39,750 bases of DNA from a virus, in the IMG/VR virus record IMGVR_UViG_3300020215_000094, positions 1 to 39,750 of that record; one strand, written 5' to 3'. The notes beneath the pieces were generated by a model, which saw only the letters and a list, made by a program, of their open reading frames with translations, had not been told where the DNA came from and searched no databases. Positions within the stretch are counted from its first letter, which is position 1; each line of letters begins with the position of its first letter. The translations under genes were made by a program, and so were the position numbers. This document shows, one piece after another, positions 12,623-36,097 of this stretch.

Positions 12623-13021
12623 ATCGCGAAGGGCAGGAAAACGGGCGGCAGGGACTTCGCCAAGGGCCAGTCGGGCAATCCGGCCGGCAGAGCGCCCATC
12701 CCGCCGGACCTGAAGGCGGTCAAGGCCCTCTCGGCCGACACCTTCAAGCGGCTCGCCACGGTCTACCTCGAGATGCCTTTCCCCGAGGTCGAGGCCACGG
12801 CCGAGGGCAACGGGCCGGCTCTGAACAAGCTGGTGGCGTCGATCATCGTGCAGGCCACCAAGTACGGGGACCACTCGCGGATGAACGCGCTCCTGGACCG
12901 GATCGTGGGCAAGGCGACGGACAAACTTGAGCTGACGCTGCCCGAGCCCTTCATCGTGCGGCGGCTCACGGGAGAGGAGGTCGTCATGGGAGCTAAGAAG
13001 CCCGACGAGGAGGCCTCGTGA
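12623..13021 (+). CDS. Terminase small subunit-like (KGQSGNPAGR motif); apparent AUC start
   Basis: The frame contains GGRDFAKGQSGNPAGRAPIP, the DUF5681 signature often found at the N-terminus of phage terminase small subunits, followed by a helical domain (ALNKLVASIIVQATKYGDHS; RMNALLDRIVGKATDKL). Family proteins begin M-A/P-K-G-R-K-T-G-G-R, and here that first residue is encoded by ATC (12623-12625), with AAGGTG 5 bases before it. No ATG, GTG or TTG lies in frame between the integrase stop and the motif; the first ATG in frame is at 12773, inside the conserved region. It should form the DNA-recognition ring of the packaging motor. Its stop overlaps the next start (GTGA). Confidence 0.7.
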   Translation: MAKGRKTGGRDFAKGQSGNPAGRAPIPPDLKAVKALSADTFKRLATVYLEMPFPEVEATAEGNGPALNKLVASIIVQATKYGDHSRMNALLDRIVGKATDKLELTLPEPFIVRRLTGEEVVMGAKKPDEEAS

Positions 13022-13992
13022 CGCGTCTATTCGAAGCCCGCCCGTTTCTGGTGGCCGAGGTGGGATCAAACCACCTTGGCCTGAGTGACTGCCTCGAGTC
13101 GATTGCCAAGGCTGCCAAGTGCGGGGCCGACGCGTGCAAGTTCCAGCTTTTCGACGGCGCCGCGCTCTACGGCCGCCCCGACCTCGCGCCCAAGGGATCG
13201 ATCGACCCGCTCTGGCTCCCCAAGCTCCGCGAGAAAGCCGACGCCTGCGGGATCGAGCTGGGCGTCACGGCGTTCAGCCCGGAGCTCGTCAAGGCAGTCG
13301 ACCCCTACGTGGGATGGCACAAGGTGGCGAGCAGTGACTGCGCGTGGCCGCAGATGCTGGATGCGGTGGCGGCAACCGGCAAGCCCATCATCATCAGCTT
13401 CGGAGCCCACGGTGTGGCGGATACGATGGCTGCGCTTCAAACACTGGCTCATCACGGGAGAGCGGTCGGGGAGCATGTGGTGCCGATGTACTGCGCCGCA
13501 GCATACCCGTCACGAAGACACGAGCCATACCTCCTGCGCGATATGCAGCAGGCTGTTGGTGGTCCGGTCGGATTTTCTGATCATAGCCAGGACGTCTATT
13601 CCGCCCCAGTTGTGGCCGCCCGAGAGTTCGGGGCCATCGTCCTAGAAAAGCACGTCACCTTCATCGACGCCGACACGCCCGATCGCCCGCACTCGCTGGA
13701 TGCCGACGGCTTCAAGCTGATGGTCGATACGATCCGGGGGAAGCGGGTGCCGACCCTGGGGCCGTCGCCGGAAGAAAAGGCGATGGTGCTCCGGCATAAC
13801 CGGAGGCTCATCGCCACCCGCGATATCGCCCAGGGCGAGACGCTGCGCTACGGCGAGAACTTCGGCGCCTACCGCTCGCTCGAGGACGACTACCGCGGCC
13901 TCTCGCCCTGGGCGTGGGAGGCGGTCGAGGGGAAGCGGGCGACCAAGGCGATCGCGAGAGGGAAGGGCGTGGGGCCGGGGGACTTCGAGTGA
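13018..13992 (+). CDS. NeuB/PseI-type nonulosonic acid synthase with SAF domain
   Basis: A full-length 324-residue enzyme. The TIM-barrel part opens with FLVAEVGSNHLG and GADACKFQLFD, has the GFSDHS motif (Ser187-Asp188-His189-Ser190) and LEKHVTF (Glu210-Lys211-His212), then PDRPHSLD. The C-terminal SAF/antifreeze-like domain (about 260-324) contains RRLIATRDIAQGETL and ends with the typical G-K-x-A-T-x-x-I pattern. Family members condense phosphoenolpyruvate with a 6-deoxy-hexosamine or ManNAc derivative to make sialic, legionaminic or pseudaminic acids. It is translationally coupled to terS (GTGA) and to the next small gene, deep inside the packaging module, so it must be expressed late. 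Exact sugar cannot be decided from sequence. Confidence 0.9.
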   Translation: MTRLFEARPFLVAEVGSNHLGLSDCLESIAKAAKCGADACKFQLFDGAALYGRPDLAPKGSIDPLWLPKLREKADACGIELGVTAFSPELVKAVDPYVGWHKVASSDCAWPQMLDAVAATGKPIIISFGAHGVADTMAALQTLAHHGRAVGEHVVPMYCAAAYPSRRHEPYLLRDMQQAVGGPVGFSDHSQDVYSAPVVAAREFGAIVLEKHVTFIDADTPDRPHSLDADGFKLMVDTIRGKRVPTLGPSPEEKAMVLRHNRRLIATRDIAQGETLRYGENFGAYRSLEDDYRGLSPWAWEAVEGKRATKAIARGKGVGPGDFE

Positions 13993-14162
13993 TCATCCCG
14001 AGGCCAGGGCGCGTGCCGATCATCGTGCCGGATCCCGTCGTCAACGGCGGCGGCGTTGAGGCGTCGTGGTGGATGGTGCCGCTAGCTGCTCTGGCCATCT
14101 TCGCGGCAATTTGCCTCATCGTGTTTTTCGCATGTCGCGCGGCGGAGTTTTTCTCTGCCTGA
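13989..14162 (+). CDS. Small membrane protein, 57 aa
   Basis: GTG 13989 overlaps the NeuB stop (GTGA). The protein has a Pro/Val-rich N-terminus (IIPRPGRVPIIVPDPVV) and a strong membrane helix (WMVPLAALAIFAAICLIVFF) followed by a short tail. It lies between the sugar synthase and terL and overlaps the apparent terL start by 8 bases. Role unknown. Confidence 0.6.
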   Translation: MIIPRPGRVPIIVPDPVVNGGGVEASWWMVPLAALAIFAAICLIVFFACRAAEFFSA

Positions 14163-15477
14163 ATGGTCCCCCCACAGCCCAAAGCAGGAGCGGGCGGTCT
14201 TCACCGACCGCCGCATCACCGTCTGCGGAACGGGCGTCCAGTGGGGCAAGTCCACCGTGGGCGCGGTGCGGCTCAAAATGCTCATGCACGAGCACTCTGC
14301 CGCGGGCGACGCCTTCGTCGTGGCGACGCCGACGTACAAGGTGCTGAAGCAGGCGACGCTGCCGGCGTTCCTGAACGTCATGCGAGGGCTCGGCACCTAC
14401 TCGGCCGCCGACGCCGTCTTCACGACGTCCTGGGGCTCCCAGGTCTACTTTCGGACGGGGACTGATCCCGACTCGGTGATCGGTATCACCAACGTCCGCG
14501 GCGTCTGGGGCGACGAGGCGGGCCTTTTCTCCCTCTACTTCTGGGAGAACCTCCAGGCCAGAGCCGCCTTCAAGGAGGCGCCGATCGTCCTCACGACCTC
14601 GCCGTACACGCTCAATTGGGTCTTCTCCGAGATCATCCGCCCCCGGCAGAAGGACCCCGCGGCGCGCCCCGACGTCGAGCTGGTGCAGGCCCGCTCGGAC
14701 GAAAATCCGTACTTCCCCAAGGAGGAGTACGAGAGGCGCAAGGCGACCATGGACCCCCGCCGCTTCCGCATGGTCTTCGGCGGCCAGTGGGAGAAGATGG
14801 AGGGCCTCGTCTACGACTGTTTCGACGATGAAGAGAACGTCGTGGACCCCTTCCCGCTGCCCACCGGCACCAAGTTCTACGGCGGGATCGACTGGGGCTA
14901 TAACCCGGACCCCTTCGTCCTCCTGATCCGGGCTGTGACGCCTGACGGCAAGCACTTCGAGGTCTCCGAGCACTACCAGACGGGGCTCACACCCTCGCAG
15001 ATGGTCTCGCTGGTCCAGCAAAAGCGCCAAGTCTGGGGCGTGAGGCAGTTCTTCTGCGACCCGAGCCAGCCAGGCCTCATCGCCGAGCTCAATCGCCACG
15101 GGTGCGTCGCCACCGGGGCCGACAACGACATCCTGGTGGGCATCGGCCGGCACTATGAGCTCGTGAAGACCCGCCGCTACCGGGTCTTCAGAGGGGCGTG
15201 CCCGCACCTACTCGACGAGCTGTCGATGTATCATTACCCTGAGCCCCAGGATCTAAAGCCCGACCAGAATCCCAAAGAGCCAAAGCCCGTGGACCAGCAC
15301 AATCACGCGGCCGACGCCATGCGCTACGTGACGATGGGGACCTGGAACCTAGCCGGCGAGCGGCGGCCCATCGTGCCGAGCGGCGAGGGCGGCAGGCCTA
15401 AGCCCGAAGAAGACCAGTTCAAGCGCATCGAGAGACTAAAGCGCCGCTCGGCTCGGGGCGGTTTGGAGGAGTGGTGA
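14155..15477 (+). CDS. terL: Terminase large subunit; no standard start codon
   Basis: A 440-aa packaging ATPase-nuclease. Walker A is GTGVQWGKST (residues about 26-35, Lys32), Walker B is GVWGDEAG (Asp120, Glu121), coupling motif TTSPYTLNW follows. The RNase H-like nuclease domain has Asp246 (GGIDWGY), Asp302 (FFCDPSQ) and Asp387 (NHAADAMRY). No ATG/GTG/TTG occurs in frame before Walker A after the stop at 14083; CTG 14155 has GGAG 7 bases upstream and gives MPEWSPHSPKQERAVF. Alternatively the real start is ATG 14163 with a +1 shift in the six-C run 14168-14173, or that run is a miscount. All catalytic residues are intact. Confidence 0.9.
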   Translation: MPEWSPHSPKQERAVFTDRRITVCGTGVQWGKSTVGAVRLKMLMHEHSAAGDAFVVATPTYKVLKQATLPAFLNVMRGLGTYSAADAVFTTSWGSQVYFRTGTDPDSVIGITNVRGVWGDEAGLFSLYFWENLQARAAFKEAPIVLTTSPYTLNWVFSEIIRPRQKDPAARPDVELVQARSDENPYFPKEEYERRKATMDPRRFRMVFGGQWEKMEGLVYDCFDDEENVVDPFPLPTGTKFYGGIDWGYNPDPFVLLIRAVTPDGKHFEVSEHYQTGLTPSQMVSLVQQKRQVWGVRQFFCDPSQPGLIAELNRHGCVATGADNDILVGIGRHYELVKTRRYRVFRGACPHLLDELSMYHYPEPQDLKPDQNPKEPKPVDQHNHAADAMRYVTMGTWNLAGERRPIVPSGEGGRPKPEEDQFKRIERLKRRSARGGLEEW

Positions 15478-15843
15478 GTGCCTGCGTACCCCTATAGCTG
15501 CACGGCTTGCGTCGATTCGGCCTTCGAGGTCGTCCACCGGATCAGCGACTGGAACGCCGCTGAAGTCTGCCGCCGGTGCGGCGGTCCGGCTCACCGCACC
15601 ATCTGCGCCGTAAACTTCAACGGCGCCTCCGACTGGGGCAAGGTCGAGTTCAACCACGGCTTGGGGCAGTGGACGACGGGCAAAAGGGACCGCGATGAGA
15701 AGGCCAAGCGCCAAGGGATGGTCGAGATCGGAAACGACTTCGGCTCGCCCGAAAAGCAGATCGCCCACGACGAGAAGCGCAGAGAGGAAAAGCGCCAGCA
15801 GCGCTGGGCCGACGCCCTCCGAGAAAAGGTCTACGAGGACTGA
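15478..15843 (+). CDS. FmdB-like zinc-ribbon protein in the head module, 121 aa
   Basis: Starts at GTG 15478 directly after the terL stop. Residues 1-50 follow the FmdB/zinc-ribbon pattern: PAYPYSCTACVDSAFEVVHR, then CRRCGGPAHRTI, with two CxxC pairs. The remainder is a charged helix typical of phage FmdB-like proteins located next to terL or portal genes. Its function is unknown; a late regulator or head assembly factor is possible. Confidence 0.7.
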   Translation: MPAYPYSCTACVDSAFEVVHRISDWNAAEVCRRCGGPAHRTICAVNFNGASDWGKVEFNHGLGQWTTGKRDRDEKAKRQGMVEIGNDFGSPEKQIAHDEKRREEKRQQRWADALREKVYED

Positions 15844-15909
15844 CGCCGCGCCTGTGTACATGGATTTATGGACATGGGGCCGCGTGGCCCTCGAGATGGA
15901 GCCCGCCAG

Positions 15910-17793
15910 ATGCTAGACGAGCACGCCCCCAGGACCGGCCCCGAGGACGAGAAAAAGCCCGCCCAAGAGGCCTGGGAGGGGACGCCGGCCGAGCGAAAGC
16001 TGGTCAAGCGGCTCAAGAAGAAGTTCGAGGAGGCCAAAAAGCACAAGAGCCTCTTCGACGCCAACTGGCTCACCTACTACAAGATGTACCGCGGCCGGCA
16101 GTGGGAGACGATGCGCCCCAGCTACCGCCACGGCGAGGTTGTAAACTTCATCTTTCAGAACGCCCAGAGCATGGTGCCGATCATGCTCGACACGAGGCCC
16201 AAGTTCGAGTTCATGGCGACCGAGCCGACCGACCGCGAGTTTGCCGAGATCATGAACGACCTGGCGGCCTCGGACTGGGAGAAAAAGGGCTGGATGGGCG
16301 TTCTGACGGAAGTGGCGTTCGACGGCTGGCAGTACGGCTCTGGCCTCTCTCGCATGAAGTACGACCCCGAGGCCGGCCAGGGCTTAGGCGAGATCGACTA
16401 CCGCTCGGCCGACCCGTTCTACTGCTTTCCCGACCCGGATAGCTCCAAGGTGAACGACGAGGACCCCTTCGTCGGCTCCGACTACTTCTGCTACGCGCAG
16501 CCGGTCTCCCTTCGGAAGCTGAAAAAGGCCTTCCCGAAGTACGCCAAGTACATGAAGGCCGACCTGGTCGATCTCACGAGCGACACCAAGCACGACGTGA
16601 CGCCGCTTCGGATTCGCTCGCCGATCGACAACCGCTCGGTGGTCGAGACGACGGCCGAGACGGAGTTTCAGCTCCGCGACAAGGCGCTCATGATCGAGAT
16701 GGTCTGGCGCTGCGACGAGATCGAAGAGATCGAGGTCCCAGGCGGTGTGGACGCCAACGGCGCGCCCGTGCCGCCGGTCTATGAGCAGCGGCTCAAGTAC
16801 CCCAACGGCCGCTACACGGTGATCGTCAACGACATCCCCGTCTTTGACGGCCCAGCGCCCTTGGAGGACGGGACCTTCCCGTGGCAGAAGTTCGACAACT
16901 ACGTGCTCCAGCGCGAATTCTGGGGCGTGTCGGAGGTCGAGAACCTCAAGAGCCCGCAGCAGGTCTTCAACAAGCTCGTCTCCTTCTCGCTCGACGTCCT
17001 GGCGCTGATGGGCAACCCCATTTGGCTGAACCCCTTTGACTCAGGCGTCGAGGACGACCAGCTTGAGAACCGCACGGGCCTCGTCATCCCGCACAACCGC
17101 GAGGCGCCGCCGCAGCGGATCGAGGGGGTAAACCTCCAGCCGTGGGTGAGCCAGTTCATCGACAAGTTCGCCGACTGGTTCAACCAGGTGGGCGGCAGCC
17201 AGGACATCACGAGAGGCGTGAACCCCACGGGCGTCACCGCTGCGTCGGCCATCTCGAGCCTCCAGGACGCCGCGCAGACGAGAGTCCGCCAGAAGTCGCG
17301 GAATCTGGACCTCTACCTCCAGCAAGTCGGCCAGTGCTACGCCCAGCTCGTGATGCAGCATTACTCGGCGCCCCGGGTTTTCCGGCTCACCGGCAAAGAC
17401 GGCGCGCAGACCTACTTCAAAGCGCACATCTCCAAGGCCCAGGACGGGACGACCATGCTCGTGAGAGAGACCTTCTCGCCCGAAGGCCTCTCGACCGGCA
17501 TCCAGGAGTACGCGCTCAGAGGGAAGCTCGACGTTCGCGTCTCCACGGGCTCCTCGCTGCCGTTCAACAAGGCCGAAAAGCGCTCCCAGACGCTGGAGCT
17601 GTTCGACCGCGGCCTCATCGACCAGGAGGAGGCCTTGAAGCACGTCGACTGGCCGAATTACGAGGCCGTCCTGCAACGCATGCAGGCCGCCGCCGCTCAA
17701 GCCCAGGCCGCCGAGGCCGAAGCGGCGGCTATGAAAGCCGGCGGCAGCGGCGCAGCACCCGCTCCCTCAGCGCCGCCGCCACCGGCTGCCTAA
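15910..17793 (+). CDS. Portal protein (podovirus head-tail connector type)
   Basis: A 627-aa portal with a helical N-terminus (LKKKFEEAKKHKSLFDANWL, YYKMYRGRQWE) and the usual block VNFIFQNAQSMVPIMLDTRP, a wing/stem region, VGGSQDITRGVNPTGVTAAS (a conserved loop near the tunnel) and an Ala/Gln-rich C-terminal barrel helix. Size and pattern fit portals of short-tailed phages related to P22-type. ATG 15910 is preferred (GGAG 8 bases upstream) over ATG 15868, which has no ribosome site. It forms the dodecameric ring to which the adaptor (23576-24205) docks. Confidence 0.85.
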   Translation: MLDEHAPRTGPEDEKKPAQEAWEGTPAERKLVKRLKKKFEEAKKHKSLFDANWLTYYKMYRGRQWETMRPSYRHGEVVNFIFQNAQSMVPIMLDTRPKFEFMATEPTDREFAEIMNDLAASDWEKKGWMGVLTEVAFDGWQYGSGLSRMKYDPEAGQGLGEIDYRSADPFYCFPDPDSSKVNDEDPFVGSDYFCYAQPVSLRKLKKAFPKYAKYMKADLVDLTSDTKHDVTPLRIRSPIDNRSVVETTAETEFQLRDKALMIEMVWRCDEIEEIEVPGGVDANGAPVPPVYEQRLKYPNGRYTVIVNDIPVFDGPAPLEDGTFPWQKFDNYVLQREFWGVSEVENLKSPQQVFNKLVSFSLDVLALMGNPIWLNPFDSGVEDDQLENRTGLVIPHNREAPPQRIEGVNLQPWVSQFIDKFADWFNQVGGSQDITRGVNPTGVTAASAISSLQDAAQTRVRQKSRNLDLYLQQVGQCYAQLVMQHYSAPRVFRLTGKDGAQTYFKAHISKAQDGTTMLVRETFSPEGLSTGIQEYALRGKLDVRVSTGSSLPFNKAEKRSQTLELFDRGLIDQEEALKHVDWPNYEAVLQRMQAAAAQAQAAEAEAAAMKAGGSGAAPAPSAPPPPAA

Positions 17794-17856
17794 TGTTGCG
17801 GCAATTTCGCCGATAAGGCACATTGGATCTAGCCCAGCACTTTCCGTTTTCTCCCC

Positions 17857-19175: not shown

Positions 19176-19190
19176 GGGGGGATGGGCGCC

Positions 19191-20114
19191 ATGGCGCTTA
19201 CCTGGAACCAAGTCAATGCGCTGACCGAGAAGAAGTGGCTTCCGAAACTGGTCGACAACATCTTCGACTCCGACCCGCTTCTGGCGCGCTCGAAGTCGGA
19301 GGGCTGGTACACGAAGGAGGACGGCGGCACCTCCATCATGCAGCCGCTCCTCTACGCCTCGCTCACCGCCGCCGGCTGGTATCAGGGGGCCGACACCCTG
19401 TCCACCGCCGACAATGAGACCTTCACGGCGGCCGAGTTCGCCTGGAAGCAGCTCTACGTCAACGTCACGATCTCGCGTCGTGACGAGCTGATCAACTCGG
19501 GCGACGCCGCCAAGATCAAGCTGGTGGAGAGCAAGCTCCAGGTCGCCGAAAAGACCATGAAGGACTACCTGGGCGACGGCCTCTACAACGCCGGCACCGA
19601 CTCCAAGGCGATCGGCGGCCTGCGCCACATCGTCTCGACGTCGAACACGGTGGGCGGCATCGCCCAGGGGACCTATTCGTGGTGGCAGGCCGAGGTCGAT
19701 TCGTCGACTACGACGCTCACCCTCTCGGCCCTTCAGACCATGGACTCCAACCTCACCATCGACGGCGAGGGGCCGACGGTCTGGATCGCGACCCGGGCCA
19801 ACTACAACCGGCTCTACGCGCTCCTGCAGCCGCAGCAGCGGTTCGTGGACCAGAAGACGGCCAAGGCCGGCTTCACGAGCCTGATGTTCAACGGCAAGCC
19901 GTACATCGTCGGCTCCAAGGTCCCGGCCAACTACATCTTCGCGCTCAACGAGAAGTACCTGAAGCTGGTCGCCCACAAAGACGAGGACATGCGTATGAGC
20001 AAGTTCCTCGACTTCACCAACCAGAACGCCCGGACGGCCAAGCTTTACTGGATGGGTAACCTCACCAGCTCCAACAACCGCATGCACGGCGTCTTCAGCG
20101 CCGTCGCCGCCTAA
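19191..20114 (+). CDS. Major capsid protein (HK97 fold)
   Basis: ATG 19191 is preferred to 19182 because the G-rich ribosome site (AAGGGGGG, 19173-19180) would be too close to the latter; the product then begins MALTWNQVNALTEKKWLPK, as related capsid proteins do. At 307 residues it has the spine-helix and P-domain pattern of HK97-type shells (LQVAEKTMKDYLGDGLYNAG; WIATRANYNRLYALLQPQQR) and a C-terminal E-loop/A-domain region. No N-terminal prohead-cleaved delta domain is present, consistent with a separate scaffold. Confidence 0.88.
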   Translation: MALTWNQVNALTEKKWLPKLVDNIFDSDPLLARSKSEGWYTKEDGGTSIMQPLLYASLTAAGWYQGADTLSTADNETFTAAEFAWKQLYVNVTISRRDELINSGDAAKIKLVESKLQVAEKTMKDYLGDGLYNAGTDSKAIGGLRHIVSTSNTVGGIAQGTYSWWQAEVDSSTTTLTLSALQTMDSNLTIDGEGPTVWIATRANYNRLYALLQPQQRFVDQKTAKAGFTSLMFNGKPYIVGSKVPANYIFALNEKYLKLVAHKDEDMRMSKFLDFTNQNARTAKLYWMGNLTSSNNRMHGVFSAVAA

Positions 20115-20126: not shown

Positions 20127-20609
20127 ATGACCGTCTACGCGCAAAACGCGGGCGCTTGGTTCGACTCGGTCTCGATGGTGACGGCGACGCTGGGCACCAA
20201 TGACCCGGAAGTTGGCACGGTGCGCCGCGAAGGGGACGAGGAGTACCTCTTCGTCTACAACACCGGCTCCAACGCCCAGATCAGCCCCGGCTACGTGGCC
20301 ACGGTCTCGGCCGTCACCGGTTACTCGGTCACCGTCTCGACGACGACGATGATCGACCACCCGGTGGGCGTCTGTAAGCACGCCACGATCACGACGGGCG
20401 CCTACGGCTGGCTCCTCCGCTACGGCTTCGGCACGGCGAAGATGCCCGCCAACTCCGGCTGTGCGGCGGGTCAACTGCTCACGGTGGGCGCCGACGGCGT
20501 CTCGGCCGTGAAGTCGATCTCCACCGACGCGCCGGGGATCGTCTACGGCAAGGTCATGGAAGCGACCGGCTCGGCCGGCGTCGCCACGGCCTTCTTCAAG
20601 TTCTTCTGA
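20127..20609 (+). CDS. Head decoration-type protein
   Basis: ATG 20127 follows a perfect TAAGGAGGT ribosome site, implying abundant synthesis. The 160-aa product is beta-rich and Gly/Thr-rich (EYLFVYNTGSNAQISPGYVA; TAKMPANSGCAAGQLLTVGA), like the DUF2190-type or small decoration proteins that follow capsid genes in many phages. It probably coats or stabilises the capsid and is one possible target of the downstream glycosyltransferase-like protein. Confidence 0.7.
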   Translation: MTVYAQNAGAWFDSVSMVTATLGTNDPEVGTVRREGDEEYLFVYNTGSNAQISPGYVATVSAVTGYSVTVSTTTMIDHPVGVCKHATITTGAYGWLLRYGFGTAKMPANSGCAAGQLLTVGADGVSAVKSISTDAPGIVYGKVMEATGSAGVATAFFKFF

Positions 20610-21655: not shown

Positions 21656-21931
21656 ATGGCCTGGACCGTGACCCGGTATCCGACCGTCTTCGGGAACAAG
21701 GCCGCCGTGGGTCTGAAGCTCACCGCCGACGCGGCGACGCAGACCATCGAGACGGGCCTTAAGACCATCGAGTGGTACGCGCTTGGTACCTTCAACTCCA
21801 TGGCGAGCCAGACCGGCCGCTACATCTACATCAACAGCAACGCCTCGGGCGTGCAGTCCCACGGCGTCCTGGGCTGCTCGGGCTTTGCCGCGGGCGACGA
21901 CGTCTACGTCACCGTCTTCGGCACGCGGTGA
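21656..21931 (+). CDS. Small beta-rich virion-type protein, 91 aa
   Basis: ATG 21656 has AAGGGAGG upstream. The product is Thr/Gly/Val-rich, predicted beta (GLKTIEWYALGTFNSMASQT; YIYINSNASGVQSHGVLGCS) and located among structural genes. It resembles small head-tail or decoration proteins. Function not recognised. Confidence 0.6.
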   Translation: MAWTVTRYPTVFGNKAAVGLKLTADAATQTIETGLKTIEWYALGTFNSMASQTGRYIYINSNASGVQSHGVLGCSGFAAGDDVYVTVFGTR

Positions 21932-22296: not shown

Positions 22297-22725
22297 ATGC
22301 CACTGGTCCGCGTTTGGAACGACAACGTCCACCCCTTCCGCCAGACCTTCAAGGGCGAGGAGATCGCCATTCCGCCGCGGTCTTTCATCATGATGGACCG
22401 CGAGGAGGCGATTCAGTTCAAGGGGACCTTCTCGCCCATCGAGAGAGACGGCGGCGGCGTGCCGCTGCCGACCTCCTACAAGATGATCCGGGTCGAGAGG
22501 ACGCCGCCGTCGCCAGAGGAGCGCGAGGCCGTCGAGGCGCAGCACGTGAACCCGGTCACTGGCCGGCGTTTTGCCACCAAGGCCGAACTCGAGGCCGACC
22601 TGAAGGCTTACGCCACCGAGCACCCGGACGCCGTGGCGCATGACGCCGAGGCCGAAGCTGAGATCAAGGCGCAGGTGCCGCGGCGCGGCCCAGGCCGCCC
22701 CAAGAAGGCCGAGGTGCCGCAGTGA
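22297..22725 (+). CDS. Virion-region protein with AT-hook-like C-terminus, 142 aa
   Basis: ATG 22297 follows TAGGAGAG. The N-terminal half is compact and beta-like (PLVRVWNDNVHPFRQTFKGE; EEIAIPPRSFIMMDREEAIQ), as in small head completion proteins. The C-terminus is acidic-helical and ends with PRRGPGRPKKAEVPQ, an AT-hook-like GRP core in a basic context that could touch packaged DNA. Same operon as flanking genes with a GTGA overlap into the next gene. Confidence 0.55.
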   Translation: MPLVRVWNDNVHPFRQTFKGEEIAIPPRSFIMMDREEAIQFKGTFSPIERDGGGVPLPTSYKMIRVERTPPSPEEREAVEAQHVNPVTGRRFATKAELEADLKAYATEHPDAVAHDAEAEAEIKAQVPRRGPGRPKKAEVPQ

Positions 22726-23177
22726 GCGATTCGGGCTTCATCAAGGTCTACGGCCGGTGGACGAAGACGCTCACCGGCCCGGACGGCGCCGTTAAGGCGC
22801 AGCTTGAGGGCCCGAACGTCGTCACCACGGTCGGGAAGGAATTCCTGGCGAGCTTCCTCTACTCGGCCGCCGCCGCGGCGTCGACCTTCACCGCGAAGTA
22901 CGTGGCGATTGGCACCGACGCCACGGCCGAGGCCGTGGGCAATACGAGCCTTGGGACCGAGCTGGCGCGCCATACGGGCACCGTCTCCTACATCTCGGGC
23001 GCCATCTACCGCGTCACGGCGACGTTCGCGGCCGGCACCGGCACCGGCGCCATCGTCGAGTACGGGCTTCTCTCGTCCTCGACGGGCGGGACCTTGCTCG
23101 CGCGCGACACGGAGTCGGTCATCAACAAGGGCGCCTCGGACACCCTCACCGTGCAGGCCAACTTCACCTTCTCATGA
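22722..23177 (+). CDS. Virion structural protein, 151 aa
   Basis: GTG 22722 overlaps the previous stop. The protein has the pattern KYVAIGTDATAEAVGNTSLG then TELARHTGTVSYISGAIYRV, which I recall from phage tail/baseplate-associated small proteins, and is beta-rich throughout (TGAIVEYGLLSSSTGGTLLA). Rich in Ser/Thr/Ala. A short fibre, knob or adaptor-like role is plausible. Confidence 0.55.
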   Translation: MSDSGFIKVYGRWTKTLTGPDGAVKAQLEGPNVVTTVGKEFLASFLYSAAAAASTFTAKYVAIGTDATAEAVGNTSLGTELARHTGTVSYISGAIYRVTATFAAGTGTGAIVEYGLLSSSTGGTLLARDTESVINKGASDTLTVQANFTFS

Positions 23178-23183: not shown

Positions 23184-23579
23184 ATGGCGGATTTCAGCGT
23201 CACGATCAACAACTCCATCAATTCGTGGGGGCCCGCCCCCTCGAACAAGTGGGGCGCGTGGAACTGGAACGCCTTCAAGTGGGGCGAGGGGACGCACGAC
23301 CTCACGACCGAAACGGTCAAGGTCTCATCTGAGACCCTCTCGCTGAGCCAGTCCCTCTCGCTCGCCGCCGACTTCGTCATCTCGCTCGCGAACTCCGTCG
23401 CCTCCACCGAGGACTTGGGCTCCGAAGTCCTCCGCTCCGGCTCCTACTCCTACGTTTTCCCCTCGAACGTGACCGACGGCGAGAGCCGGTCGTTTGCCAC
23501 CTGGACCTCGGGCTCCGTGGCGTCGGTCACCTGGACCTCGGGCACGGCCACCTCAACCTCGTGGAGTAGCGCCGCATGA
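23184..23579 (+). CDS. Ser/Thr/Trp-rich virion protein with short repeats, 131 aa
   Basis: ATG 23184 lies 7 bases after the previous stop. The N-terminus has a W-G-x-W-N-W-N-x-F-K-W-G cluster; the middle is Ser/Leu-rich; the C-terminus has near-repeats TWTSGSVASV and TWTSGTATSTSW. Low-complexity Ser/Thr stretches like this are possible O-glycosylation sites, which is relevant to the Maf-like gene upstream. The stop overlaps the adaptor start. Confidence 0.55.
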   Translation: MADFSVTINNSINSWGPAPSNKWGAWNWNAFKWGEGTHDLTTETVKVSSETLSLSQSLSLAADFVISLANSVASTEDLGSEVLRSGSYSYVFPSNVTDGESRSFATWTSGSVASVTWTSGTATSTSWSSAA

Positions 23580-24205
23580 CGCCGCTCGAGATCGAGACCA
23601 TGGCGCGCCAGCGCTACAACGCCGTCGGCGACAGCTTTTGGGCGTCGACCGAGATGATGGGCCTCATCTGGCAGGCCTGCCAGGAGCTGGCCAGAGAGGC
23701 GAAGTGCATCCGGCGCGTCTTCACGACGACGACTGTGGCAGGCACCCGCGAGTACGCCTTCCCGACCAACGTCACCGCCATCAAGCGGATCATCTACAAC
23801 GGGATTCGCTTGGACGAGGTGCAGTTCACGGTCGATGACGACCTCACGAGCTTCTACGAGACGACGACGAACCAGGGCCCGCCGGAGACCTTCGTCCAGT
23901 GGAACGAGACGCTCTATCTCAGGCCCATCCCCGACGGCGCCTACACGCTGAAAATCTATGGGTACTGCGAGCCGCAGGAGGTCACTTCGACTTCGACGCT
24001 CGAGGTTCCGACTGAGTACCATCAAGGCCTCTGCGACTACCTCAATATGATGATGGCGGCCAAGGATAAGAACCTCCAGGCCGCCCAGTGGTTCGAGAAG
24101 CGCTGGGACCTCACCAAGGCCAAGGCCGTCCGCCAGGAGCGGGCGAAATACCGGGGCGGAAACCTCATCTCGGTCTATGACGCCGAAGGCTGGCTGTCGC
24201 GGTGA
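23576..24205 (+). CDS. Head-tail adaptor (podovirus tail tubular A/gp4-like)
   Basis: A 209-aa helical-then-beta protein that starts MTPLEIETMARQRYNAVGD and continues LIWQACQELAREAKCIRRVF, REYAFPTNVTAIKRIIYNG and ETLYLRPIPDGAYTLKIYGY, the pattern of podoviral adaptor/tail tubular A proteins that bind under the portal. It overlaps the previous gene by ATGA and the tail hub gene by GTGA, so adaptor and hub are made together. Confidence 0.75.
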   Translation: MTPLEIETMARQRYNAVGDSFWASTEMMGLIWQACQELAREAKCIRRVFTTTTVAGTREYAFPTNVTAIKRIIYNGIRLDEVQFTVDDDLTSFYETTTNQGPPETFVQWNETLYLRPIPDGAYTLKIYGYCEPQEVTSTSTLEVPTEYHQGLCDYLNMMMAAKDKNLQAAQWFEKRWDLTKAKAVRQERAKYRGGNLISVYDAEGWLSR

Positions 24206-26103
24206 GGCGTGACGGCTACAACGTCGTCTTCCCCCTCGACGGCCGGCAGGCCTTCGACGGCGGCATGAACTCGAAGTTCGAGCGGGCGCTGATCGCTCCG
24301 AACGAGAGCCCGGACTGCCAGAACGTCGTCTTTGCCAACGGCGCGGTGGCCACGAGAGAGGCGGCGACCCAGCTCAACACGACGGCCGTGGGCTCGTTCG
24401 TCTGCGACGGCATCTACACGCGGCGCGCCAATACGGGCGCTGAGACCATGGTCGCCTGGTTCGGCGGCACGGCCTGGAACCTCACCGGCACGTCGACCTT
24501 CGCCACGATCGCCTCGGCGCAGTCGGTCTACACGGCTGGCCAGCGCGTGGGGGCGGCGCAGTACGAGAACCACATCTTTTTCGGCAACGGCGGCACGCTC
24601 CCCTACAAGTGGAACGGCACCGATTTCACCCGCCACGGCGTCTATCCGCCGACCCAGACGGCGACAGCGGCGAGCATCGCCGGAACGCTCTCGGGCGATC
24701 AGTCCTACAAGATGACCTACGTCAACAGCCAGCTCGCCGAAAGCGACCTGGGGCCGGCGACGACGTTCTCGGTCACGGCCACGGGCGGCGGCGTGCGCCT
24801 TTCCTCTCTGCCGGTGGCGCCGCAGAGCTTCGGCGTCTCCAGCCGGCGCATCTACCGCTACGACTCTGGCTCCTATAAGCGCGTCGGCACCATCGGCGAC
24901 AACACGACGACGACGTTTGACGACGCGGGCGCGACGGCCGGCGCCACCGCCCCCACCGACAACGGCGTACCGCCGCTCTGGCGCGTGGCCGTGGCCCACC
25001 AAGACCGGCTCTTCATGATCGATGCCACGACCCCCAACCAGGTCTGGTACTCGAACCTGGGCGAGCCGTACACGGTGGCCTCCACCAACTTCGACACCTT
25101 CGGCGACGCCTCGGCCGATCTGCCGAAGGCGCTCGAGGTCTACGACAACTCGCTGGTCGTCATCTGCGAGAACAGCCAGTGGGTCTGGTACATGCCGTCC
25201 ACGACGGTCTCCGACTGGCGCAAGGTCAAGGTCCGCTCCTCCTACGGCAGCCGCTCCCCTTACGGCGCCGCCCAGGTCGACGGCGGCGTCATGTTCCCAG
25301 CGATCCAGAACTCCAAGCTCGTGGGCTTTGGCATCGTCTCTGGCGACACCTTGCAGCCGTCGACGACCCTTCTCACCGTCTCGGCCATGCAGTCGGATCT
25401 GGCGTCGGACCGGATCGAGCCCGAGATCTTCGACATCCAAGAGGCCTACGTCTCGAACATCTCGGCCTTCGTCTTTAGGAACAAGGCCTACCTCGCCGTC
25501 ACCTACGGCTCGGGCGCGACGACCAACAACCGCGTCTTCGTCTACGACTTCTCGGTGCAGCGCCTGAACAAGCCGCAGCGCGCCGCCTGGACGATCTACA
25601 AGGGCGCCAACGCCGCCCAGTTCACGGTCTATGACGGGAAACTGTACTTCGGCTCGGCCACGGCCAACGGCCTGGTCTACCGGCTGGAACACGAGTCCGT
25701 CTACACGGACGCTGGAAGCGCGGCGATCGACAGCTACTTCTGGACCAAGGAATTCGCGGGGCTCAAGGGCCACGAGAACCTCGAGAAAGACTTCCGCTGG
25801 GCCAAGGTCTTGGTCGACATGGCCGGCGCCTACTACATGACGATGCGCTACCGCACCGACTCCGACTCGGGCGATGGCCAGTCGGTGCAGCTCTCGCTCA
25901 ACCCCGGCTCGATGATTTGGGGGACGGGCGTCTGGGGGCAATCAACCTGGGGCTCGGGCTCGACGCAGAAAGAGATCTCGGTGCCTCTGGGGCAGTGCCG
26001 GGGAAAACGCATCCAGTTCCAGTTCTCCAACCAAAACACCGCGGGCCAGCGCTTTAAGGTCCACGGCCTCAACTTCACCTACAACGTCAAAGGGGAGCGC
26101 TGA
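24202..26103 (+). CDS. Tail hub/stabilisation protein (podovirus tail tubular B/gp10-like)
   Basis: A 633-aa, beta-rich protein beginning at GTG 24202. The opening FPLDGRQAFDGGMNSKFERA, followed by LIAPNESPDCQNVVFANGAV, is the common start of podoviral hub/stabilisation proteins. Next come beta-propeller-like blades (RRIYRYDSGSYKRVGTIGDN; FVYDFSVQRLNKPQRAAWTI) and a C-terminal beta-sandwich with GMIWGTGVWGQS-like tryptophan-rich turns. It would close the tail and contact fibres. Together with the adaptor gene this is the main evidence for a short-tailed virion. Confidence 0.78.
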   Translation: MRRDGYNVVFPLDGRQAFDGGMNSKFERALIAPNESPDCQNVVFANGAVATREAATQLNTTAVGSFVCDGIYTRRANTGAETMVAWFGGTAWNLTGTSTFATIASAQSVYTAGQRVGAAQYENHIFFGNGGTLPYKWNGTDFTRHGVYPPTQTATAASIAGTLSGDQSYKMTYVNSQLAESDLGPATTFSVTATGGGVRLSSLPVAPQSFGVSSRRIYRYDSGSYKRVGTIGDNTTTTFDDAGATAGATAPTDNGVPPLWRVAVAHQDRLFMIDATTPNQVWYSNLGEPYTVASTNFDTFGDASADLPKALEVYDNSLVVICENSQWVWYMPSTTVSDWRKVKVRSSYGSRSPYGAAQVDGGVMFPAIQNSKLVGFGIVSGDTLQPSTTLLTVSAMQSDLASDRIEPEIFDIQEAYVSNISAFVFRNKAYLAVTYGSGATTNNRVFVYDFSVQRLNKPQRAAWTIYKGANAAQFTVYDGKLYFGSATANGLVYRLEHESVYTDAGSAAIDSYFWTKEFAGLKGHENLEKDFRWAKVLVDMAGAYYMTMRYRTDSDSGDGQSVQLSLNPGSMIWGTGVWGQSTWGSGSTQKEISVPLGQCRGKRIQFQFSNQNTAGQRFKVHGLNFTYNVKGER

Positions 26104-30633: not shown

Positions 30634-30635
30634 CC

Positions 30636-31526: not shown

Positions 31527-31532
31527 CCATTG

Positions 31533-31549
31533 CCTCGGGCTCCGAGGCC
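31533..31549. terminator. Hairpin after tail fibre gene
   Basis: GCCTCGG-GCT-CCGAGGC is a perfect 7-bp stem with a 3-base loop, 7 bases after the fibre stop. The downstream T content is low, so it may act as a partial terminator or mRNA end-protection structure between virion and sugar genes. Confidence 0.45.
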
Positions 31550-31562
31550 TGCTACCTTGCCC

Positions 31563-31579
31563 GATAAATCAGATTTATC
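31563..31579. promoter_or_regulatory. AT-rich palindrome GATAAATC-A-GATTTATC
   Basis: A perfect 8+1+8 inverted repeat in a GC-rich genome, in the 71-base gap between the fibre gene and the start of the sugar cassette. This could be an operator or part of a promoter for the cassette. No clear -35/-10 pair accompanies it. Confidence 0.45.
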
Positions 31580-31597
31580 GCCGTCGGATTTCTATTG

Positions 31598-31876
31598 ATG
31601 GATTTGATCACCTGGGCTCTCGCCCTCGGCCTATTAACCGTCGTGCAGGCCGCAGGGTTCCTGGCCTGGCGTCTCCGAAGGGAGCGCCAGGCCTATAGCG
31701 CAGCGCTCGCCGCCCATGAAAAGCGCGCCGCCGAGCAGCTAGCCGCAGCCGAGAAGGCGCCGGCACCGACCCATGACGCCAAGCGCGTCTTGGCCGCCCT
31801 GGCGTCCTCGTCGGCCATCGTCCGCATCGACGTCCTCGATCCGGGGGACTTCTTCATCCGCTCACCACGGGGATAG
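31598..31876 (+). CDS. Small membrane protein opening the sugar cassette, 92 aa
   Basis: ATG 31598 (TTG 31595 in frame is less likely). An N-terminal membrane helix (LITWALALGLLTVVQAAGFL) is followed by a basic stop-transfer RLRRERQ and an Ala-rich helix, then a small beta segment (IVRIDVLDPGDFFIRSPRG). Ribosome site is weak. A similar one-helix membrane protein closes the cassette at 35836-36144, and they may be a pair. Function unknown. Confidence 0.5.
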   Translation: MDLITWALALGLLTVVQAAGFLAWRLRRERQAYSAALAAHEKRAAEQLAAAEKAPAPTHDAKRVLAALASSSAIVRIDVLDPGDFFIRSPRG

Positions 31877-31880
31877 CGGC

Positions 31881-32774
31881 ATGCGCTACGTCATCGTCGG
31901 CGGCACGGGGACCATGGGCAAAGCGCTCACCAAGGCGCTGCTCACCAAGAAGGACACCGAGCGCGTCCTCATCGTCTCGCGCGGCGAGCTAAAGCAAAAG
32001 GAGCTTAGGGACGCCAACCCCGGCGAGTACGCGCGTGGGCGCCTGCGCTTTGTGATCGGCGACGTGCGCGACAAAGACGCGATGTACGAGGCGATCGACC
32101 CGGGCGTCTCGGCCGTCTTTCTCTGCGCGGCTTTGAAGCACGTCGACGTCGCCGAGGACAACCCGCTCGAGGCGCTCAAGACCAACGCCCTGGGCGTCGC
32201 CAACGTCGCGGAAGCGGCGATGACGGCCGACGTCCCGCACGTCGTCTTCAGCTCGACCGACAAGGCCTGTCTCCCGGTCAACGCCTACGGGATGAGCAAG
32301 GCCTGGGCCGAGCGGTATCTGTGGGCCATGAACCGCCGGCAGGTCGCCACCCGCTTTGCCGTCTACCGCTGGGGGAACGTCCTGGGCTCGCGCGGCTCGG
32401 TGATCCACGACTTCATCCGAACGCTTGAAACCTCGCGCTCGGTCTCGGTCACCGACCCTCGGATGACGCGCTTTTGGCTCAAGATCGAGGAGGCCGTCGC
32501 CTTCATGCTCTCGACCTACCGCGACGCCGCCCCTGATCGGCCGATGATTCCCAAGATGCGGGCCTCGAGCGTCATGGAGCTGGCCGAGGCGACCGCCCGG
32601 CTCATGAAGATGACCGACTTCGAGGTCAAGGTGGTCGGCATCCGCAACGGCGAGAAGCTTCACGAGACCATCGAATCGACGCACGAGAAGTGCCTCAGGT
32701 CCGACACGGCCGAACGCTTCTCGAAAGAGGACCTTGAGGCCCTCATTGCTCCGCTCATCGAGGGCTGCGCGTGA
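31881..32774 (+). CDS. PseB/FlaA1-like UDP-sugar 4,6-dehydratase
   Basis: A 297-aa extended short-chain dehydrogenase. ATG 31881 has GGGGA 7 bases upstream. The NAD(P) motif is GGTGTMG (residues 7-13); then VSRGELKQKEL, RLRFVIGDVRDK, AALKHVDVAEDNPLEALKTN, FSSTDKA (Thr126-Asp127-Lys128) and YGMSK (Tyr136, Lys140), followed by RWGNVLGSRGSV. These are the hallmark blocks of inverting UDP-GlcNAc 4,6-dehydratases that start pseudaminic acid synthesis, including the Asp-Lys in place of the usual Asp-Glu catalytic pair. Expected product is a 4-keto-6-deoxy UDP-hexose. It is the first of five overlapping enzyme genes. Confidence 0.85.
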   Translation: MRYVIVGGTGTMGKALTKALLTKKDTERVLIVSRGELKQKELRDANPGEYARGRLRFVIGDVRDKDAMYEAIDPGVSAVFLCAALKHVDVAEDNPLEALKTNALGVANVAEAAMTADVPHVVFSSTDKACLPVNAYGMSKAWAERYLWAMNRRQVATRFAVYRWGNVLGSRGSVIHDFIRTLETSRSVSVTDPRMTRFWLKIEEAVAFMLSTYRDAAPDRPMIPKMRASSVMELAEATARLMKMTDFEVKVVGIRNGEKLHETIESTHEKCLRSDTAERFSKEDLEALIAPLIEGCA

Positions 32775-33394
32775 GAAAGGTCTGCCTCGTCGGTCACCGC
32801 GGCGGCATGGGTCGCCGCTATCAGGCGGTCCTCAAGCACCTCGGCTACCGGGTCGTCGGCCACGACTTGGCCGACGGCTACAAGCCCCTGCGCGTCCGTA
32901 TCGCCGAAGCCCAGGGATGCGACGGGGTACTCATCGCCACGCCGACCGACGCCCACATTGCGTCCATCCACGAGTACATGCGCGCCGGGCGCCCCATCCT
33001 CTGCGAGAAGCCCATCTCCCGCGACCCCTTTGCGCTGCGCGCGCTCTTAGACGACGTGCAGGCCCGAAAGGCGCCGCTCCAGATGGTCCGCCAGTACGAG
33101 AGGCTGGTGGAGGAGAAGGACGAGGGCCTCACCGAGTACGACTACTTTCGCTCAGGATCGGACGGCCTCCATTGGGACTGCATCTCGATCGTGTCGCTGG
33201 CCAAGGGGACGGTCCGGCTGGCAAGCGAGAGCCCCCTGTGGAAGTGCCAGATCAACGGCCGGCGTCTGTCGCTTGCCGACATGGACCGTGCCTACGTGGA
33301 GATGGTGGACGAATGGCTGAAGGCCCCGCGCGACGACTCCGGGCGGCTCATGGAGTGGCACCTGAAGGTCGCCCAGATGAAGGCCTCGGCGTGA
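32771..33394 (+). CDS. Short Gfo/Idh/MocA-type oxidoreductase-like protein
   Basis: Starts at GTG 32771 (GTGA overlap). The Rossmann part begins KVCLVGHRGGMGRRYQAVLK and contains VLIATPTDAHIASIHEYMRA followed by ILCEKPISRDP, the E-K-P motif of Gfo/Idh/MocA enzymes. At 207 residues it is well below the usual 320-380; much of the C-terminal alpha/beta oxidoreductase domain is missing or compressed. Relatives occur in legionaminic and bacillosamine-like clusters as sugar-nucleotide redox enzymes. Whether this short form is active is uncertain. Confidence 0.7.
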   Translation: MRKVCLVGHRGGMGRRYQAVLKHLGYRVVGHDLADGYKPLRVRIAEAQGCDGVLIATPTDAHIASIHEYMRAGRPILCEKPISRDPFALRALLDDVQARKAPLQMVRQYERLVEEKDEGLTEYDYFRSGSDGLHWDCISIVSLAKGTVRLASESPLWKCQINGRRLSLADMDRAYVEMVDEWLKAPRDDSGRLMEWHLKVAQMKASA

Positions 33395-34122
33395 AGACGG
33401 TACTCATCGGCATCCAGGCCCGGTCGACCTCGACGCGGCTGCCGAGAAAGGCGTTTGCCACGATCGGCGATCGGATGCTCCTAGACCACGTCTTGAAGGC
33501 CTGTAAGGACTCGGCCTTTTACCTCAACAACGCGCGCCGCCGGACCCAACTGGCCCGCGTGGCCCTGCTCGTGCCCGAGGGCGATCCGATCGCCGCGGCC
33601 TTTCGCGACCGCTGCTACATCGTCGAAGGCCCCGAGGACGACGTCCTGACGCGCTATGCTTACGCCGCCCAGGAGTTTAGCGCCCACTACGTGGTCCGAA
33701 TCACGGCCGACTGCCCCAAGATCCCGCCCTACGTGATCTCGGCCCACGTCGCTCGTGCCCTGGCACCCGGGACGCCGCTCGACTATCTGTCCAACGTCGA
33801 CGAGGACGCCCGCACGTCGCCCGACGGCCACGACTGCGAGGTCATCAGCCGGCGGCTTCTGGACCACGTCCACGCCGAGGCGAAGTCGGCCTTTGACAGA
33901 GAGCACGTGACGACCTTCATCCGCCGCGGCGTGAGAGAGAGGACGCTCTCTAGGGACTTTCGCTGCAAGGTGACGGTGGGCTTTACCGACGACTCGGCCA
34001 AAAAGCTCTCCGTCGACACCGAGGACGACCTAAGGCGCGTCAGAGAGGATGACGACCGCGTCGAGGCCAAGATCCGCCGGGGCCTTGAGATCTACGGCCC
34101 CGAGGGAGTCCTGCGCCTATGA
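33391..34122 (+). CDS. SpsF-type cytidylyltransferase (CMP-sugar synthetase-like)
   Basis: A 243-aa protein, GTG 33391 overlapping the previous stop. The N-terminal IGIQARSTSTRLPRKA (residues about 7-21) is the nucleotide-binding signature of the CMP-NeuAc/CMP-Kdo synthetase family, in its SpsF form. VVRITADCPKIPPYVI and DEDARTSPDGHDCEVI follow the family's metal- and sugar-binding pattern, and SVDTEDDLRRV is the conserved C-terminal block. It would activate the product of the NeuB-like synthase as CMP-sugar. SpsF proteins also serve spore-coat sugar pathways, so the acceptor is not certain. Confidence 0.82.
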   Translation: MKTVLIGIQARSTSTRLPRKAFATIGDRMLLDHVLKACKDSAFYLNNARRRTQLARVALLVPEGDPIAAAFRDRCYIVEGPEDDVLTRYAYAAQEFSAHYVVRITADCPKIPPYVISAHVARALAPGTPLDYLSNVDEDARTSPDGHDCEVISRRLLDHVHAEAKSAFDREHVTTFIRRGVRERTLSRDFRCKVTVGFTDDSAKKLSVDTEDDLRRVREDDDRVEAKIRRGLEIYGPEGVLRL

Positions 34123-35330
34123 TCGACTTCTCGGATCAGCGCCGCGCCAATCTCTCGATCGCGCAAGGGGCGCTCACCAACTCCAAGCGCCCTGAGATCT
34201 TCGTAAAGGGCGTCTACCCCACGCACGTCATCCGCGGCCAAGGCTGCTTTCTCTGGGACACGGCCGGCCGCAAGTACGTCGACTACATCTGCGGCCTGGG
34301 CTCGAACCTCATGGGCTACGCGCACGAGACCATTACGTCGGCCGTGATCTCGCAGATGGGCGCCGGCGCGACGCTCTCGCTCTCGACCGTGCTCGAGATG
34401 GAGGTGGCCGAGCGGATCAAGGGCCTCGTGCCCTTCATCGACGCCGTGAAGTTCCTGAAGACCGGCACCGAGGCCTGCATGGCGGCGATCAAGATTGCCC
34501 GGGCCAAGACAGGCAGAAGGCTAGTCTTATCAGATGGATACCATGGCTGGTCGGACCCCTTCGTCTCGCTCACGCCGCCCGCCGCCGGCGTCGTCCCCGA
34601 CTCTGAGTCGCTCTGCGTGGCCAAGCTCACCGACTTCTCGCAGATCACGCCGTCGGTGGCCGCGGTCATCGTCGAGCCCGTCGTCACCGACTGGTCGGCC
34701 GAGCGCCGCCGCTATCTTGAGCAGCTGCGCGCGGCCTGCGATCGGGCCGGCGCGCTCCTCATCTACGACGAGGTCATCACCGGCTGGCGCTGGCCGAGCT
34801 ACACGGTCGCGCAGGCCTGGGGCGTGACGCCGGATCTCATCTGCCTCGGCAAAGCCATCGGCGGGGGGCTGCCGCTCTCGGTCGTCGGCGGCAAGTACGC
34901 CGTGATGAATGGCTCTGAGTACTTCGTCTCGTCCACGTTCGCCGGCGACCAGGCGGCCCTGGCGGCGGCCAACTCGGTGATGGCTCTCTTGGGCGGCCGC
35001 TACTCGCTCTCGCGCCTTTGGGAGCAGGGGGCGGCGTTTCTCGAGCGCTTCAATCGCCTCTGGCCGGACGCCATCAAGATCGTCGGCTATCCCACCCGCG
35101 GCGCCTTCCAGGGGGACGCCGGCGTCAAGGCGCTGCTGTGGCAGGAGGCCTGCCGCGCGGGGATTCTGCTCGGGCCATCGTGGTTCTACTGCTTCCCGCA
35201 TATCGACGAGCAGGAGGCCGTCCTGGGGACCTTGGCGGACATCATGAAGCGCATCCGGGCCGGCCAGGTGGAACTGAAAGGCGAGCCGCCGCGCTCGCCG
35301 TTTGCCGCACAGGTGAGGGGGAAGGCGTGA
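34119..35330 (+). CDS. Class III PLP aminotransferase (GSA-like)
   Basis: A 403-aa enzyme starting at ATG 34119 (ATGA overlap). Visible landmarks are VIRGQGCFLWDTAGRKYVDY at the substrate entry, FLKTGTEACMAAIKIARAKT, Asp217 in YDEVITGW, and the PLP lysine Lys245 in CLGKAIGGGLPLSVVGG. It is closest in pattern to glutamate-1-semialdehyde aminomutase-type enzymes that also occur in sugar clusters with SpsF and NeuB. The usual pseudaminic pathway uses a DegT-type PseC aminotransferase, so here a class III enzyme would be the replacement. A role in haem synthesis is unlikely in this context. Confidence 0.85.
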   Translation: MIDFSDQRRANLSIAQGALTNSKRPEIFVKGVYPTHVIRGQGCFLWDTAGRKYVDYICGLGSNLMGYAHETITSAVISQMGAGATLSLSTVLEMEVAERIKGLVPFIDAVKFLKTGTEACMAAIKIARAKTGRRLVLSDGYHGWSDPFVSLTPPAAGVVPDSESLCVAKLTDFSQITPSVAAVIVEPVVTDWSAERRRYLEQLRAACDRAGALLIYDEVITGWRWPSYTVAQAWGVTPDLICLGKAIGGGLPLSVVGGKYAVMNGSEYFVSSTFAGDQAALAAANSVMALLGGRYSLSRLWEQGAAFLERFNRLWPDAIKIVGYPTRGAFQGDAGVKALLWQEACRAGILLGPSWFYCFPHIDEQEAVLGTLADIMKRIRAGQVELKGEPPRSPFAAQVRGKA

Positions 35331-36097
35331 ACGTGACCTTGGAGCTCGGGCCACTCGATAGCTCGGACATCGAGCAGATCCGCCGCTGGCGGAACGACCC
35401 GCGGATCTGGCGCTGGACTCGGCAGAGCTGCTTCATCTCAGACGTCGCCCAGCGCGATTGGTTCGACCGCATGTCCAAGTGCAACCAGACGCGCATGTTC
35501 CGGATCAACCTGCGGATCGACGACCGCCCAGCTGAAGCCGTCGGCGTCTGCGGCCTAACCAACATCGACTGGGGAAACCGGCGGACCGAGCTGTCGCTCT
35601 ACATCGCGCCCGAGCACCATCGCAAAGGCTTTGGCCGCAGGGCCTGCGATCTGCTCCTCATGCACGCCTTCGTGAACCTCAACCTCAGGCTCGTCTGGGC
35701 TGAGAGCTTCGACGGGAATCCTGCGATCAAGATGTTCGAGAGCCTGGGGTTTGTTCGCGAGGGCACCCGGCGTGACTTCTACTGGAAGGACGGCAGATAT
35801 TGGAACGCCCACCTTCTTTCGATCAAGGTAGACGAATGGATTACCTCGAAATCGCCCACCTCGCCATCAGCCTCGCCATCCTCGTCCTCATCGCCCTCGG
35901 CTTCCGTAGCTCCCTTGGATGCAGCCGTCAGCACGCCCCAGAAGATCGCGACCGCCATGAGGCGCCCGCGCGGCAGGCCCCGGAGGCTAGGCCAACCCCT
36001 CCCCCCGGCAGCGCCTACGCCGGCCCCCCTAGAGCCGCTAGCGGAAGCGGCAAGCGACGCCCCATCGCCATCGACGACGCCCGGGCTTACCGGCTAG
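35327..36097 (+). CDS. PseH-like GNAT acetyltransferase with unusual tail
   Basis: GTG 35327 overlaps the aminotransferase stop. Residues 1-175 are a GNAT: ELGPLDSSDIEQIRRWRNDP, the acetyl-CoA loop HHRKGFGRRA (97-106), NPAIKMFESLGFVREGTRRD and the family end W-K-D-G-R-Y-W-N. This is the PseH type, which acetylates the 4-amino group of UDP-4-amino-sugars. The frame continues for about 86 Ser/Pro/Ala-rich residues simply because no stop occurs; that part coincides with the better-supported membrane gene 35836-36144 in another frame. The tail may be translated but is probably not folded. Confidence 0.8.
   Translation: MNVTLELGPLDSSDIEQIRRWRNDPRIWRWTRQSCFISDVAQRDWFDRMSKCNQTRMFRINLRIDDRPAEAVGVCGLTNIDWGNRRTELSLYIAPEHHRKGFGRRACDLLLMHAFVNLNLRLVWAESFDGNPAIKMFESLGFVREGTRRDFYWKDGRYWNAHLLSIKVDEWITSKSPTSPSASPSSSSSPSASVAPLDAAVSTPQKIATAMRRPRGRPRRLGQPLPPAAPTPAPLEPLAEAASDAPSPSTTPGLTG

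Follow-up and report, generated by a model that had tools for sequence, protein, structure and literature searches.

Predicted nonulosonic acid genes in the window

The stretch of phage DNA analysed here, hereafter the window, is IMG/VR virus record IMGVR_UViG_3300020215_000094 and is 39750 bases long. It carries at three distant loci seven genes predicted to function in the synthesis and transfer of a nonulosonic acid: a NeuB/PseI-type synthase gene, a Maf-type transferase gene among the head genes, and a cassette of five sugar genes (Table 1). Pseudaminic acid-like sugars of this kind are acidic, have nine carbons and are related to sialic acid; they are known chiefly from the flagella and capsules of bacteria. 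An initial annotation of the window had named these genes as a sugar pathway. All of them are present, Pfam and NCBIfam searches bear out their families, and profile and structure searches of the proteins against the NeuB, PseB, SpsF, PseH and Maf families gave matches to the expected families.

Table 1. Coordinates of the sugar genes and other features of the window, with the evidence for each
Feature	Position	Strand	Evidence
NeuB/PseI-type nonulosonic acid synthase with SAF domain	13018..13992	+	PF03102 3.8e-36, PF08666
Maf-type (MptE-like, pfam01973) transferase, 338 aa	20627..21643	+	PF01973 4.8e-22
PseB-like UDP-N-acetylglucosamine (UDP-GlcNAc) 4,6-dehydratase, inverting type	31881..32774	+	PF02719 2.2e-76
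Short Gfo/Idh/MocA-like protein, 207 aa	32771..33394	+	PF01408 1.4e-6 (partial), family alignment, PDB profile matches
SpsF-type cytidylyltransferase, putative CMP activation	33391..34122	+	PF02348 (CTP_transf_3) 9.2e-14
Class III pyridoxal phosphate (PLP) aminotransferase, putative PseC replacement	34119..35330	+	PF00202 3.9e-43
PseH-like GNAT N-acetyltransferase	35327..36097	+	GNAT 8e-19; TIGR03585
Major capsid protein, possible acceptor	19182..20114	+	phrog_9953 1.1e-55
Predicted capsid decoration/head-fibre-base protein, candidate acceptor	20127..20609	+	AlphaFold + Foldseek
Integrase	11494..12579	+	PHROG phrog_1 4.7e-23
Terminase large subunit (TerL)	14257..15477	+	phrog_2 2.4e-36
Portal protein	15868..17793	+	phrog_156 2e-56
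SU10-type adaptor	23576-24205		Pfam
Protein with amidase-like match	24202-26103		PHROG
Direct terminal repeat	1..170, second copy 39581-39750		1 mismatch between copies

The synthase gene lies directly upstream of the terminase gene. Its family profile finds the pseudaminic acid synthase 8h2c as the top match in the PDB and ranks PseI (2.4e-57) over NeuB (1e-37), though SpsE of the Bacillus subtilis legionaminic acid (Leg) pathway is close (3.5e-51). The PseB-like dehydratase matches TIGR03589 (PseB) at 1.3e-69 and is nearer to PseB than to LegB (234.6 bits vs 36.1 bits for TIGR04180), and its family profile matches the UDP-GlcNAc C6 dehydratase 2gn4 (2.1e-83). The family profile of the SpsF-type enzyme matches 6oew (1.4e-32) and also KdsB; the NCBIfam model for PseF does not match the cytidylyltransferase of the window. 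The PseH-like protein matches TIGR03585 (PseH) at 1.1e-18.

Which residues are catalytic in the synthase, dehydratase and aminotransferase we take from established knowledge of these families; their retention was measured here by alignment, and they are kept. K41, K102, H189, H212 and R263 of the synthase are unchanged in 26/26 sequences, where the two histidines are those of SDH and E(K)H and R263 is the arginine of the SAF domain. TDK and YxxxK are invariant in all 22 of 22 dehydratases, and the PLP lysine K245 is present in 20 of 21 aminotransferases. The short MocA family retains its glycine motif and EK(P).

Adjacent genes of the cassette share 4-base overlaps (GTGA, GTGA, ATGA and GTGA), as translationally coupled genes would. 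The start of the cassette at 31881 is plausible because homologues begin there. In three relatives, HNH-type, zinc-finger-like open reading frames (ORFs) are lodged between genes of the cassette or overlap with the aminotransferase frame (G029, L143:11305-11751; G033, L151:5697-6272; G040, L158:1450-1914), looking like homing endonucleases that invade the cassette. A small protein of 61-70 aa, probably a coiled coil, is encoded between the aminotransferase and GNAT genes of many relatives (G018, G025, G033, G040 and G029) and is absent from the window.

Distribution and co-variation across the phage lineage

IMG/VR was scanned with the Maf protein and then with the Maf family profile, which gave 24 and then 159 relatives; the long ones were retrieved and searched with in-house profiles. 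A related Maf gene is carried by at least 159 IMG/VR contigs, and the Maf relatives of the window are 40-99% identical. The full set of seven genes is found in the window and 17 long relatives, and most relatives with fewer genes are truncated by contig ends. The layout recurs as well: the NeuB gene directly precedes that of TerL in nearly all relatives, and the cassette comes after the tail-fibre genes and ahead of the lysis genes. Profile scans of IMG/VR with NeuB and MocA returned mainly the same lineage, and by hand count the TerL of the lineage is present at 71 of 79 independently retrieved NeuB loci. Judged by this distribution, the sugar genes and Maf are a core trait of this uncultured and widespread phage lineage, not a stray acquisition, and extend well beyond the one phage to which the initial annotation had ascribed them.

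A chance gathering of generic sugar genes is ruled out by conservation and co-variation, since the same genes occupy the same positions in many divergent relatives. The unity of the three loci is supported in two ways. In a sister group (L225, L227 and G023), the PseB-like, NeuB, MocA, SpsF-type and aminotransferase genes, sometimes with GNAT (missing from G023), lie together, and the presence of NeuB inside this cassette ties the separated loci of the window together functionally. Protein distances of the synthase, Maf, aminotransferase, dehydratase, MocA and SpsF-type proteins correlate with those of the terminase (r 0.62-0.81; aminotransferase-TerL 0.75) and with one another (Maf-NeuB 0.83, Maf-aminotransferase 0.81, aminotransferase-NeuB 0.81). 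The Mantel permutation p is 0.0005 for the tested pairs, among them those of terminase with NeuB, Maf, aminotransferase and dehydratase. This co-variation supports a functional link among the three distant loci, as the initial annotation had supposed.

Averaged over pairs, identity of the sugar proteins and Maf is 38-53%, close to the 43-55% of terminase, portal and capsid, and their divergence follows that of terminase and portal. Because such divergence is combined with conserved active sites, the sugar genes have probably long belonged to the lineage and been maintained by selection. In the close relative G001 (L044), most head and cassette proteins are 99-100% identical to those of the window, TerL is 91% identical and NeuB 70%, so NeuB seems to have been exchanged by recombination. 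In a subgroup (L202, L219-L221 and L228), the short MocA gene stands by itself between the terminase and portal genes and is encoded on the other strand.

The Maf-type transferase and its candidate acceptors

The predicted structure of the Maf-type protein (pLDDT 87) has as its top Foldseek match the Magnetospirillum Maf glycosyltransferase 5mu5 (E 9.7e-10), which is also the sole match of its sequence profile in the PDB (E 0.0075). The human sialyltransferase ST8SiaIII appears among the fold matches at lower significance. The next fold match after 5mu5 is an archaeal HPPK/MptE of the same superfamily (8sd5, 3.1e-5), and a pyrophosphokinase-like enzyme resembling archaeal MptE, with the sugar genes serving a host polysaccharide or modification of phage DNA, would account for it. 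We regard this as very improbable, given the better match to Maf, the sialyltransferase matches, and the strong co-occurrence and co-variation of the gene with NeuB and the cassette. The top viral matches of the protein are MptE-like proteins of uncultured phages at low identity; by these matches, the Maf-type domain occurs in other phages too.

In every relative, Maf is placed within the head-gene cluster, in the order major capsid protein, decoration protein, Maf. The capsid protein shares about 25-34% identity with its counterparts in Myxococcus phages Mx8/Mx9 and others. The candidate decoration protein is 20% Ser/Thr and has a beta-rich AlphaFold model (pLDDT 81) that resembles in Foldseek capsid proteins of cyanophage Pam3, the phi29 gp8.5 base, HFTV1 and T1. 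Ser/Thr-rich virion proteins are also encoded at 21656-21931, 22722-23177 and 23184-23579. We know of no sequon for Maf enzymes. Bacterial Maf enzymes O-glycosylate Ser/Thr of surface-exposed flagellin with nonulosonic acids (PMC11339370). Because the phage gene adjoins capsid genes and bacterial Mafs modify such a surface protein, the acceptor is likely the decoration or the capsid protein. The initial annotation had offered modification of the virion; the family of the transferase holds, and the location among capsid genes favours a virion target with the acceptor as a proposal.

The nonulosonic acid could alternatively be destined for flagellin or a surface protein of the host, in infection or lysogeny, where it would change motility or block superinfection as a form of conversion. 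The integrase of the window, the position of the cassette between tail-fibre and lysis genes (a usual spot for accessory genes) and the flagellin targets of known Mafs (PMC11339370) are in keeping with this. However, Maf stays in the head-gene cluster throughout the relatives, whereas conversion genes tend to vary between them, and much of the 632-residue flagellin Maf 5mu5 is absent from the phage protein. We think a host target unlikely.

A proposed pathway

We consider it fairly probable that, in infected cells, this probably temperate podovirus-type lineage synthesises a pseudaminic acid-like nonulosonic acid with which it decorates its own particles. In the order of steps that we infer, the PseB-like dehydratase would work on UDP-GlcNAc, the class III aminotransferase would add an amino group at C4, and the PseH-like GNAT would acetylate the amino sugar. 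The free 6-deoxy sugar would be released by a hydrolase that is not recognisably encoded by the phage; the host might supply it, or a phage protein of other ancestry might do its work, for instance the short MocA protein. The NeuB/PseI synthase would condense this sugar with phosphoenolpyruvate, the SpsF-type enzyme would make the CMP-sugar, and the Maf-type enzyme would transfer the sugar to Ser/Thr residues on a protein of the capsid surface. The most likely acceptors are the major capsid protein and the decoration protein whose gene immediately precedes Maf. Receptor or immune disguise, a purpose given in the initial annotation, is one benefit that may follow.

Several observations weigh against this proposal. 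A UDP-sugar hydrolase step (PseG/NeuC) is required in the standard pathway. The PseG (TIGR03590) and NeuC/Epimerase_2 profiles, whose controls were positive in bacterial genomes, have no match in 23 contigs (the window and 22 relatives). The aminotransferase is of class III and not of the DegT type of known pseudaminic acid (Pse) and Leg pathways; it may be functionally equivalent to PseC. Several enzymes score below the NCBIfam equivalog cut-offs, so that their exact substrates are putative: the dehydratase does not reach 407.75, the GNAT has 67.9 bits with a cut-off of 93.1 bits, and the NeuB score in the window also stays under its cut-offs. G032 (L149:8131-9090) keeps Maf and is without NeuB, dehydratase, MocA, SpsF-type and GNAT genes; its aminotransferase remnant is decayed and has lost the PLP lysine, and perhaps this phage uses a host sugar. 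G040 lacks dehydratase and MocA, and G041 lacks MocA. The phage Maf of 338 aa covers part of the 5mu5 chain (TM-score on target 0.28) and does not match the three-domain architecture of the solved enzyme. Finally, distances of the decoration protein follow Maf no better than they follow other genes (r 0.53).

Some of these points would also fit a different sugar, acidic or amino, that Maf adds to the virion, such as a legionaminic-like or 8-carbon one, or a 3-keto/3-amino sugar made by way of MocA. The scores under the cut-offs, an aminotransferase class and a MocA protein foreign to the standard Pse route, the match of the cytidylyltransferase to KdsB and the missing PseG all allow for it. 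The dehydratase, however, fits the inverting PseB above LegB, and the synthase profile places PseI over NeuB, with SpsE close; such a sugar is possible, if less probable than a pseudaminic-like one.

The initial annotation had described the system as self-contained, which is not supported in the absence of a PseG or NeuC homologue. In six relatives the ORFs near the cassette were inspected for a hydrolase; they comprise nothing but small genes of coiled-coil, HNH and lysis type. As far as these genomes tell, either the host or a phage protein of another family must carry out the step, or else the route differs. The short MocA protein, listed in the initial annotation as a pathway member, is not known to act in this pathway. 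Related Gfo/Idh/MocA proteins use NAD for unusual sugar chemistry, and it is for this reason a candidate for the hydrolase step; G040 and G041 do without it, which speaks against its being essential. A variant and new route to an acidic sugar, in which a non-homologous NAD-binding MocA protein replaces the hydrolase and feeds a capsid-dedicated Maf to give a phage-encoded sialic-acid-like coat, seems to us improbable. Spores of B. subtilis that lack the hydrolase gene spsG carry much less Leg on their surface, although some remains (PMC7439481), so the hydrolase step may be partly replaceable.

Comparison with known systems

The Pse pathway of Campylobacter and Helicobacter (PseB-C-H-G-I-F) has counterparts in the phage in the PseB-like and PseI/NeuB proteins, and putative ones in the PseH-like protein and a CMP-type cytidylyltransferase. 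The phage differs in having a class III aminotransferase for the DegT-type PseC, an SpsF-type enzyme for PseF and no PseG, in its extra short MocA protein, and in that the genes are carried by phages. The sps pathway of B. subtilis shares with it an SpsE-like synthase, UDP-linked precursors and an SpsF-type cytidylyltransferase; in B. subtilis, SpsF is required to bring Leg to the spore surface (PMC7439481). Unlike that pathway, which serves the spore crust, the phage has no SpsG and another aminotransferase. With the Maf flagellin glycosyltransferases (5mu5; Clostridium botulinum Maf, PMC11339370) the phage enzyme shares the pfam01973 core fold, the link to nonulosonic acids and a gene beside that of a surface-exposed structural protein, whereas it is shorter, lies in a capsid gene cluster and has an acceptor that is a candidate only. 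Capsid and tail tube proteins of mycobacteriophages carry sugars according to Freeman et al. 2023, as cited in PMC12619734. There, as proposed here, virion proteins are the carriers, but the present lineage is a different one and has a dedicated acidic-sugar pathway and a Maf-type enzyme.

DNA and protein searches of INPHARED, including tblastn, found no detectable relative of Maf or NeuB; Mx8/Mx9 and similar phages, for all the likeness of their capsid proteins, have neither by tblastn. MocA gave partial matches only, and the aminotransferases matched were generic, many in host-DNA-like records. GTDB genomes searched for prophages or a host yielded only distant bacterial Mafs (at most 28% identity). 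In 395 genomes of one phylum, searched at E 1e-15, no short form of MocA turned up, a weak negative that had no positive control. The open-access papers searched yielded no account of nonulosonic acid pathways in phages, and priority is thus not certain. The kinds of components are known; no case in which they form a core module of a phage together with a capsid-linked Maf was found in INPHARED or in that literature.

Genome context

The first and last 170 bases of the record are alike except for one mismatch, so the record is close to a complete phage genome, of about 39.6 kb. Because an integrase is present, this podovirus-type phage is probably temperate, and the term lytic operon in the initial annotation is too narrow. 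A phrog_253 match (4e-6) at 6916-7530 is to a Mu Gam-like end-protection protein, in a genome otherwise of podovirus type.

Significance

Glycosylation of phage virions is known in few cases. If the proposed pathway is correct, phages would be able to build their own sialic-acid-like surface, and would do so from the core genome of a lineage seen on at least 159 environmental contigs. The purpose of such a coat, be it stability, adsorption, surface binding or protection, would then be testable, and the lineage would offer a minimal Maf enzyme together with a small structural acceptor.

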